A stretch of DNA of 46,356 nucleotides from contig JAGPFL010000005.1 of NCBI GenBank assembly GCA_018056545.1, forward strand, positions 1 to 46,356, written 5' to 3'. The notes beneath the pieces were generated by a model. It had not been told where the DNA came from. It saw only the letters and a program-made list of their open reading frames with translations, and did no database searches. This stretch comes from Syntrophobacterales bacterium. GTDB taxonomy: Bacteria > Desulfobacterota > Syntrophia > Syntrophales > UBA8958. Below are positions 372 through 41,286 of this stretch, piece by piece. Both the position numbers and the translations under genes were made by a program. Each line of letters opens with the position of its first letter. Positions within the stretch are counted from its first letter, which is position 1.

Positions 372-410
372 GGAACAAACCGGGGGATAAACTCAACCAC
401 GAAATGGCGA

Positions 411-465
411 AGAACATTTGCTTTGCCGCTGGCGAACCATTTTTCTACGGATATGCAAAGCCGTC
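411..465. repeat. Dispersed palindromic repeat, copy 1
   Basis: This segment matches about 42 of 54 positions of the segment at 41171-41220 and is more loosely related to 12062-12110. The shared core is GAACCATTTTTC (434-445) followed by TATGCAAAGC. GCTTTGC at 420-426 and GCAAAGC at 455-461 can form a 7-bp stem around the core. It lies between oleC and oleD and overlaps the most upstream start codons possible for oleD. Confidence 0.6.
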
Positions 466-1499
466 AAGACAAGATTACCTCCCCGTTACAGGGAACAGAT
501 GTTGAGACGGTGCTGGTCACCGGCAGCGGGGGCTTCCTGGGCGGGGCCATCGTAGCGCAACTGCTGGCGGCGGGGTTCTCCGTTAGAAGTTTCGCCCGGG
601 GCGACTATCCGGAATTGCGGCGCCGGGGTGTCGCAGTTATCCGGGGGGACCTGACGGATATCGAGGCGGTGAAGAGGGCCTGTGACGGCTGTGCCGTCGT
701 GTTCCACAATGCCGCCAAGGCCGGGGTTTGGGGGGATTTCGATTCATTTTACCGTCCTAACGTCATGGGCACCAAGAACGTCATTGCGGCGTGCGCCGGT
801 ACCGGTGTGGGCCGGCTGGTCTTCACCAGTTCCGCCAGCGTCGTTTTCAGTGACGCCGACATGGCCGGAGTGGACGAGACCGTGCCCTATCCGGAACAGC
901 CCCGCTCTCCCTATACGGCGACGAAGGCGGAGGCGGAGAGGATGGTCCTGGCGGCCAACGGCGCGACACTCAAGACCCTTTCCCTGCGCCCCCACCTCAT
1001 CTGGGGGCCCGGAGACACCCAGATCGTCCCCCGGATCATCGCCCAGGCCCGGGCGGGCAAGATCGTCCGGGTGGGGGACGGAAGAAACGTCATCGACGCC
1101 ACCTATATCGACAATGCCGCCGCCGCCCATCTCCTGGCGGCCCGGGCCCTGGCCGGCAACCCCCGGGCCCCGGGCCGGGCCTATTTCATCTCCAACGGCG
1201 AGCCCGTCAACCTCTGGGATTTCGTGAACCGCATCCTGGCCCTGGCGGGGCTTCCCCCGATCCGTCGGGGCATCTCCAAATCCGTGGCGGTGCTTTTGGG
1301 GACGATTGTCGAGAAGCTCCACCTTACCTTGCGGCTCTCCGGAGAACCGCGGATGACGCGCTTTCTGGCCGAGGAACTGGCGACCACCCACTGGTTCGAC
1401 ATCAGCGCCGCCCGACGGGAACTGGGATATGAACCCCGGGTTTCCATGGAGGAGGGGCTGCGGCGCCTGCAAGCATGGCTGCTGCAGGCGCGGATCTGA
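453..1499 (+). CDS. oleD: NAD(P)-dependent epimerase/dehydratase family, OleD-like 2-alkyl-3-oxoalkanoate reductase
   Basis: This is an extended short-chain dehydrogenase/reductase of the 3-beta-hydroxysteroid dehydrogenase-like group. A Rossmann nucleotide-binding motif TGSGGFLG lies close to the N-terminus, the catalytic serine region reads VFTSSASVVF, and the catalytic YTATK (YxxxK) motif follows. The later RPHLIWGPGD stretch is typical of this family. OleD reduces the 2-alkyl-3-keto acid made by OleA to the 2-alkyl-3-hydroxy acid, which OleC then uses, so the OleC-OleD order supports the call. The start is uncertain: ATG 453 gives 348 aa but lies inside a dispersed repeat and has no clear Shine-Dalgarno; GTG 510, just before the Rossmann motif, is a real alternative. 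OleA and OleB are not in the window. Confidence 0.8.
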   Translation: MQSRQDKITSPLQGTDVETVLVTGSGGFLGGAIVAQLLAAGFSVRSFARGDYPELRRRGVAVIRGDLTDIEAVKRACDGCAVVFHNAAKAGVWGDFDSFYRPNVMGTKNVIAACAGTGVGRLVFTSSASVVFSDADMAGVDETVPYPEQPRSPYTATKAEAERMVLAANGATLKTLSLRPHLIWGPGDTQIVPRIIAQARAGKIVRVGDGRNVIDATYIDNAAAAHLLAARALAGNPRAPGRAYFISNGEPVNLWDFVNRILALAGLPPIRRGISKSVAVLLGTIVEKLHLTLRLSGEPRMTRFLAEELATTHWFDISAARRELGYEPRVSMEEGLRRLQAWLLQARI

Positions 1500-12061: not shown

Positions 12062-12110
12062 GAGCCCTCTGTTCGTTCGTGAACCATTGTTCTGCGGTTA
12101 TGCAGGGCTC
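12062..12110. repeat. Dispersed palindromic repeat, copy 2
   Basis: GAGCCCT (12062-12068) and AGGGCTC (12104-12110) form a 7-bp stem around a loop containing GAACCATTGTTC-TGCGG-TATGCA, which matches the core of copies at 411-465 and 41171-41220. The stem sequence differs from copy 1, but the pairing is kept. It lies immediately downstream of the receiver/HD-GYP gene (minus strand) and may also serve as its 3' hairpin. Confidence 0.55.
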
Positions 12111-13100
12111 TCATTCCATCCGGAAACCCCGCTCCCGAAACAGTCGGAGACAGGCGGTCACCACCTGGGGATCGAAACGGGAACCGGCTTCTTCTTTGAT
12201 CAATTCCAGGGCTTTGTCCAGCGGATACTCTTGGCGGTGTGCTCTATGGGAGGTCAGATCCTCCAGGGCATCGGCGACGGCCAGGACCCTCGCTTCCAGA
12301 AGGATGTTCTCCCCTTTGATCCCTTGGGGAAACCCCGTGCCGTCGTAATGCTCCCGGTGTTGCAGGACGACCTCGGCGATGGGCCAGGGGAAGTCTATTT
12401 TTTTAAGGATGCCGTAACCGATGGTGGGGTAGGTGCGGAACAGGGACAATTTGATGCCTTCCAGGTGGTTGACGTTATGCAGCACCTCTATGGGCACATT
12501 GATCATTCCGATGTCGTAGATGCAAGACACCAGCCCGATCCCCTCCACCTGCTGGGCGGACAGCCCCATTTCTGCGGCGATGCCCGTCGCCAGACTTTTC
12601 ACCCGCTGATGATGGCCGGGAAGATAAGGGCCACGCAGTTCAATGGTTTCGGTGAGGGCTTCGATGACGCCCCTGAGGGTGCGGTCGAGACGGAGCTTGG
12701 TGTCCTTCAAGGCCTTTTCCAGTTGATGTCGCTGGAGGGCCATCTCGATATTCGTAAAGAGCTCCATCTTGTTGAAGGGTTTGATCAGGTATCCGTAGGG
12801 GCCGGTCTCCTTGGCCCGGGCAATGAATTCTCCGTTGGTGTGGGCCGTGAGATAGATCACCGGCAGTTCGAACCGGTTGCGGATCAAATCCGCCGTCTCG
12901 ATACCGTCCCGGTCCCCGGGCAGGACGATGTCCATGAGGACCAGGTCGGGTTTTTCCTCTTCGATCATCCGGATCGCTTCCGCCGCCGACCCGGCCAACA
13001 GGCAGGACTCATATCCGAAGGAGCGGAGGCTCCGGCAGATCTGATCGCCCACAATCCATTCATCCTCCACCACCAGGATCTTTTCGCTGTTCACCTCCAT
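12111..13100 (-). CDS. Response regulator with degenerate HD-GYP domain
   Basis: A 329-aa protein. Residues 5-about 125 are a receiver domain with acidic residues in VVEDEW, phospho-acceptor D57 in LVLMDIVLP and lysine in YLIKPF. Residues about 140-325 align with the HD-GYP c-di-GMP phosphodiesterase domain, but key metal ligands are changed. The HD pair reads YD (SCIYDIGM instead of HDIGK), the next HP reads YP (RTYPTIGYGIL), HHE reads HRE, and VAD-x-x-DA reads VADALEDL. DGTGFP preserves the GYP-like motif. The domain is therefore probably not a phosphodiesterase and may bind nucleotides or partners instead. It starts 14 bp after the PAS HisKA_2 kinase stop, so it is probably that kinase's output. 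Confidence 0.88.
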   Translation of the reverse strand: MEVNSEKILVVEDEWIVGDQICRSLRSFGYESCLLAGSAAEAIRMIEEEKPDLVLMDIVLPGDRDGIETADLIRNRFELPVIYLTAHTNGEFIARAKETGPYGYLIKPFNKMELFTNIEMALQRHQLEKALKDTKLRLDRTLRGVIEALTETIELRGPYLPGHHQRVKSLATGIAAEMGLSAQQVEGIGLVSCIYDIGMINVPIEVLHNVNHLEGIKLSLFRTYPTIGYGILKKIDFPWPIAEVVLQHREHYDGTGFPQGIKGENILLEARVLAVADALEDLTSHRAHRQEYPLDKALELIKEEAGSRFDPQVVTACLRLFRERGFRME

Positions 13101-35222: not shown

Positions 35223-35360
35223 CCGGGATGGTTAGGTTCCGGAAGCGCAAATGATTTCTCAGCGGCGGCGAAGACATTATCCCAAGGTCTCGTTTCGGCG
35301 TTGTTCTTACCGGGGAAAGAGTCGGGGATGTGACCACGGAAGGAGGAGCCATCGGTAAGG

Positions 35361-41082: not shown

Positions 41083-41170
41083 CACGTGCGGGCCAGACCC
41101 CTCCCCACCCTATCCCTTCCCATGAAGGGGACGGAAATTATTAACAAATGCTTACAATCATCGCCGCAAA

Positions 41171-41220
41171 AAACATTTGATTCGCTGCTTGCGAACCATT
41201 TTTCCGCCGCTATGCAAAGC
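41171..41220. repeat. Dispersed palindromic repeat, copy 3
   Basis: Shares AACATTTG, then GCGAACCATTTTTC-CGC, then TATGCAAAGC with copy 1 (411-465), about 42 of 54 positions. The flanking stem is imperfect here. It lies 3' of cstA between two minus-strand transcription units. Confidence 0.55.
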
Positions 41221-41286
41221 TTTCTTATTTTCGTATTTCGGTATGTCCACCCCCGGTGTGCCGGTCTGGTGAACCACCTGTTACCG

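Follow-up and report, generated by a model that had tools for sequence, protein, structure and literature searches.

What is the short palindromic sequence that recurs at three distant places of this DNA, and how did it come to be there? The stretch analysed (hereafter the window) has a length of 46,356 nucleotides and is contig 3 of an assembly of 1.85 Mb in 130 contigs, which is 82% complete. The initial annotation, made from the letters alone, proposed an uncharacterised REP/MITE-like element or an RNA hairpin of the host lineage. We hold with high confidence that these repeats represent degraded copies of a MITE of the IS5-family type, a non-autonomous element that would have been moved in trans by an IS5-family transposase.

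Repeat copies in the window and the anatomy of the full element

A search with the degenerate core of the repeat, allowing at most one mismatch, gave matches at positions 434–457, 12081–12104 and 41193–41216 of the window, all on the forward strand, while 100 dinucleotide shuffles gave an expected mean of 0.01 and never contained three in any one shuffle. A profile of the right 84 bases (R1), built from 33 source copies, none of them from the own genome, found the same three copies alone at 386–462 (E 9e-20), 12074–12111 (E 7e-6) and 41166–41223 (E 7e-18), and the three dispersed copies claimed at the outset are thus real. A full-length profile, applied to the window and 12 loci of the own genome, added a fourth relic that had been missed in the initial annotation. 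The features of the window are as follows.

About 378–463, forward strand: copy 1, a right half covering positions 80–165 of the 167 in the MITE model, with the left half missing; full-length profile, E 7.1e-19.
453–1499, forward strand: OleD-like gene with its likely start codon, the ATG at 453, within copy 1; open frame, with domain matches from residue 19–21.
12062–12112, forward strand: copy 2, short palindromic form with both tips, GAGCCCTCTG ... CAGGGCTCTC; from the sequence and the right-end profile.
35238–35291, reverse strand: fourth relic, a left end covering positions 1–54 of the MITE model; full-length profile, E 3.6e-8.
About 41137–41223, forward strand: copy 3, again a right half, covering positions 74–166 of the MITE model; full-length profile, E 2.5e-17.

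Copies 1 and 3 had been placed rightly, at 411–465 and 41171–41220, but with extents shorter than those given above. With the truncation or decay of the window copies, no target duplication is readable at any of them. The similar short peptides that had been noticed when all copies are read in one frame (EPFFYGYAKPS and the like) do exist, and they are similar because the copies have their DNA in common.

Alignment of the flanks revealed that the core recognised at first is the right end alone of a larger element. Among 64 distinct cores, 42 had sufficient flank and a recognisable left end (GAGACCTTTGAAAAATGGCTTCGCC, up to 5 mismatches), and the length of these bounded copies was 165–168 bp in 32 and 63 bp in 5, both within the 50–1000 bp of MITEs; even 167 bp is too small for an internal transposase gene. 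Better-preserved copies in related Syntrophales genomes have imperfect terminal inverted repeats, GAGACCTTTGAAAAATGG and GAGAGCTTTGCATAACCGG, the left end being GAGACCTTTGAAAAATGGCTTCGCCGC and the right end, when read inwards, GAGAGCTTTGCATAACCGGTGAAAAATGGTTCGC, which repeats the left end with about ten extra bases. In the 63-bp form the left end is fused to the right end and the interior is gone; this form would have arisen through internal deletion. Exact 5-bp target duplications flank 12 of the 42 copies (mean with shuffled pairing 0.39, maximum 4), and duplications agreeing at four or more of the five positions flank 23 (shuffled mean 2.0, maximum 8). Target duplications of this kind are typically left by DDE transposases. 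The alignments A1 and A2 consist solely of copies caught by the core pattern, so that core conservation is inflated in both; the left end and the target duplications are independent of this choice of copies. A1 omits bounded copies outside 155–175 bp (8 of 42).

The own genome contains at least 12 matches to the element at E ≤0.01 in the profile search, which answers the initial call to look for further genome copies; a near-complete one lies on contig 37 (L003, 1497–1663, E 3.3e-29 with the full-length profile). As the mechanism, we propose that an IS5-family transposase acting in trans would have recognised both ends of the intact element of about 167 bp and mobilised it, and that this movement would have left the 5-bp duplications.

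A palindromic repeat may alternatively be a conserved structured RNA (a hairpin, a riboswitch-like element or a terminator) whose base pairing is under selection. The RNA fold of the full element is indeed far better than those of shuffles (z −5.0), the short form treated as single-stranded DNA gave z −3.3 and −4.4, and one pair has five double changes. The good folding of the full element is, however, due to its inverted repeats. In a consensus fold of 34 full-length copies the covariation term was +0.29 kcal/mol and any double change was found in 2 of 21 pairs, which does not amount to compensatory change along the stem; among the window copies the fold of copy 2 is modestly better than that of shuffles (z −2.05), and the folds of copy 1 (z −0.12) and copy 3 (z −0.13) are no better; and Rfam gave no match over the window at the gathering score. 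The 5-bp target duplications already contradict an RNA origin, and we consider both the structured RNA in general and the host-lineage hairpin proposed initially to be very unlikely. The covariation-like arms that had suggested such a hairpin are literally present and can pair, but GCTTTGC of copy 1 and GAGCCCT of copy 2 belong to two different registers: the former corresponds to GATTCGC of the family, a decayed inner stem, and the latter to the outer tip. A permissive Rfam search at copy 1 gave two matches at chance level, and a likeness to the c-di-GMP-I riboswitch was considered and dropped.

Termini common to IS5-family insertion sequences

The same class of ends is found in published systems. 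In a report on the BrickBuilt MITE of Porphyromonas gingivalis (PMC4596501), this non-autonomous element has the terminus GAGACCTTTGCA, present at both ends of BrickBuilt_4, its partners ISPg1 and ISPg9, with closely related termini, belong to the IS5 family, and GAGCCC tips like those of window copy 2 occur among its relatives. The same report gives the terminus GAGACCTTTGCAAAA for ISNme1 of Neisseria meningitidis, also of the IS5 family, and names it as the proposed parent of ATR, a small non-autonomous Neisseria MITE (PMC4596501). The present element carries such ISNme1/ISPg1-type termini at both ends, and because this end class has been published for BrickBuilt and ISNme1, it belongs to a known kind. 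It differs from BrickBuilt, which has a 23-nt minisatellite and duplications of variable length (PMC4596501), in being about 167 bp long with no such repeats and with 5-bp duplications; ISNme1 and ATR belong to other hosts, and the likeness to them is that of the terminus, the IS5 family and a small non-autonomous derivative.

A search for a parent among 17 DDE_Tnp_1 loci in ten genomes found one locus alone, L142 of the same genus, with the termini on both sides; L138 has two nearby termini, on one strand only. The transposase of L142 (P0001) has the domains PF05598 and PF01609 and passes the cut-off of an NCBIfam model of the IS5 family, and its relatives at E ≤1e-20 occur in 27 of the 155 genomes of the order. 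MITE-like termini (GAGA[C/G]CTTTG, at least 8 of 10 positions, at both ends within 300 bp) border 15 of 17 near-full-length P0001 relatives and none of eight other DDE transposases, these controls being the eight of the 16 other DDE_Tnp_1 loci that have a clear long forward frame, L153 omitted. Exact 5-bp duplications surround five of the insertion sequences by the automatic rule, and seven of the 17 when the second-best end is allowed (L158, L159, L160, L166, L167, L173 and L182).

In most of these Syntrophales insertion sequences (L142 and L155 to L183) the two ends also differ from each other as the left and right ends of the MITE do: at the end ahead of the transposase gene the next bases are CATAAC or CACAAC, and at the end behind it they are often AATTTT, AACAAC or AAAAACGG, in some CACAAT. 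The first 16 bases of L157 are identical to the MITE right end, and an end of L167 reads GAGACCTTTGAAAAACGG where the MITE has GAGACCTTTGAAAAATGG. The downstream end of L167 (2746–2765) is present in tandem duplicate, the outer copy yielding the exact 5-bp duplication. Unlike the MITE, these insertion sequences are about 1.4–1.5 kb long and carry a transposase gene, and the likeness stops beyond roughly the outer 16–18 bases; no single one has been identified as the parent because the ends diverge past this point. Four plasmid records assigned to other phyla and orders contain IS5-type relatives, with termini that score 8–9 of 10.

Having the termini of an IS5-family insertion sequence, the repeats might be taken for what is left of the ends of a single complete coding insertion sequence, with no separate small element, as the initial annotation itself had considered in naming what would undo its proposal. 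The 32 of 42 bounded copies of near-uniform length, having both ends together with duplications, contradict this and mark the short element as the unit that was moved; the probability that we leave to such coding remnants is practically negligible.

The present element resembles REP/BIME palindromes, which would be moved by a Y1 (RAYT, TnpA-REP) transposase, in being short, palindromic, dispersed in many copies and frequently located beside gene ends. A search for Y1_Tnp found the domain in 6 of 10 genomes but gave zero in the own genome, G003, G042 and G053, all of which have copies, and the element differs further in its IS5-type termini and its target duplications, which Y1 enzymes are not known to produce. 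Accordingly, the MITE half of the REP/MITE-like description stands on the terminal repeats, 5-bp duplications, order-wide copies and IS5 ends, while its REP half is extremely unlikely.

Distribution in Syntrophales and the partner transposase

Our survey covered 155 genomes of the order and, outside the order, named records and plasmid records. The profile search found the element in 28 of the 155 genomes, including 7 of 8 of the same genus when the own genome is counted, and G026, G042 and G053 have at least 28–29 copies each (44 core matches in G042). The core pattern matched in 9 of 60 genomes and its reversed control in none of the 60, and the named records containing the exact core (8 stretches) are all Syntrophales or 'Deltaproteobacteria' metagenome assemblies. 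No published description of the element, including by the string GAACCATTTTTC, and no publication combining Syntrophales with 'miniature inverted' was found in literature that mostly excluded subscription journals. The MITE explains an odd palindrome, and in an order that has received little study and is known mostly from metagenomes it can serve to mark where genomes were reshuffled in the past. Some MITE copies in G026 have a second palindrome, around GGGGGACACGACTTCGTCATGTCCCCC, within or beside them (L032 at about 1390–1430, L040 and L020), and another common stretch, about AAAAAGTCCGGATGCTTCGTTG(C/T)GCTTCA, is seen near the copies L019, L041 and L069.

Over the 155 genomes, the terminus GAGANCTTTGNANAA occurs 1769 times, compared with 48 for the reversed pattern, and at least 10 occurrences were found in 37 genomes, as against none for the reversed control. 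Exact matches number 239 in G002 and 241 in G038, and in G002 the number is 492 when one mismatch is allowed. The elements in 286 kb of G002 have interiors other than that of the present MITE and like ends, which points to several MITE families with one end type; 12 short terminus pairs in this 286 kb include four with exact 5-bp duplications and five with at least four matching positions (shuffles 0.78, maximum 4). G002 elements with the same termini and an inner dispersed repeat like GTCATTTCGAGGAGCGCGAGCGACGAGAAATCC are found at L125 117, L130 1984, L131 17041 and L137 2298. A pair of ends 1189 bp apart in G002 was tried as one element and rejected, because it appears to be two adjacent MITEs enclosing a gene, which by our reading may encode an endonuclease III-like protein.

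Genomes having the insertion sequence contain a median of 6 termini compared with 2 in those lacking it (one-sided Mann-Whitney p 0.0014, with relatedness ignored). At E 1e-20, P0001-type transposases were not found in the own genome, G002, G026, G042 and G053, all of which have copies, and 14 of the 20 genomes having at least 20 exact termini, G002 and G038 included, gave no transposase match at the threshold. The transposase that the initial annotation advised looking for is thus present in relatives and was not found in this assembly. The abundance of termini in genomes where no partner transposase was found is the main result that a simple scheme does not fit. It would be accounted for if the insertion sequence had been lost, if it lay in a part missing from the assembly, or if the partner were more distantly related. 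We infer that an IS5-family transposase did the moving and that the copies in the own genome are now fossils, apparently no longer moving. G002 and G038 offer natural cases for studying non-autonomous multiplication with no partner transposase in sight.

Insertion sites and gene starts

Copy 1 lies at the junction of the OleD-like gene, for which OleD is the closest NCBIfam model with a score below its cut-off, and an upstream gene, putatively OleC. In six of seven relatives of the same genus, the OleD-like gene directly follows the upstream gene without the element, and in the seventh (G002) the sequence upstream of the OleD-like gene differs. The ATG at 453, coming from the right end of copy 1, is the only in-frame ATG before the nucleotide-binding motif VLVTG and lies 19 residues upstream of it, and in the six relatives 19–22 residues precede this motif, if translation is assumed to begin at the first ATG. 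The ATG within copy 1 is the likely start of the OleD-like gene, and GTG at 510 and TTG at 423 are possible alternatives.

The right-end ATG is kept in 55 of 64 copies, and it is likely to be the start codon of a HAD hydrolase at L042 in G003 (domain from residue 9) and of TrpF at L073 in G042 (domain from residue 6), no other ATG being present ahead of the domain at either locus. These cases raise the tentative idea, which we regard as rather doubtful, that the MITE right end TATGCAAAGC might act as a mobile start-codon cassette replacing the native start at the 5′ edge of genes; if this were true, some gene starts would be transposon-made, and gene calling would also be affected. At the opposite edge of a gene, copy 2 adjoins a response regulator gene with an HD domain on the reverse strand (12111–13100) and gives two bases of its TGA stop codon, and the G002 relative of this gene, 67% identical, ends with TAG without the element.
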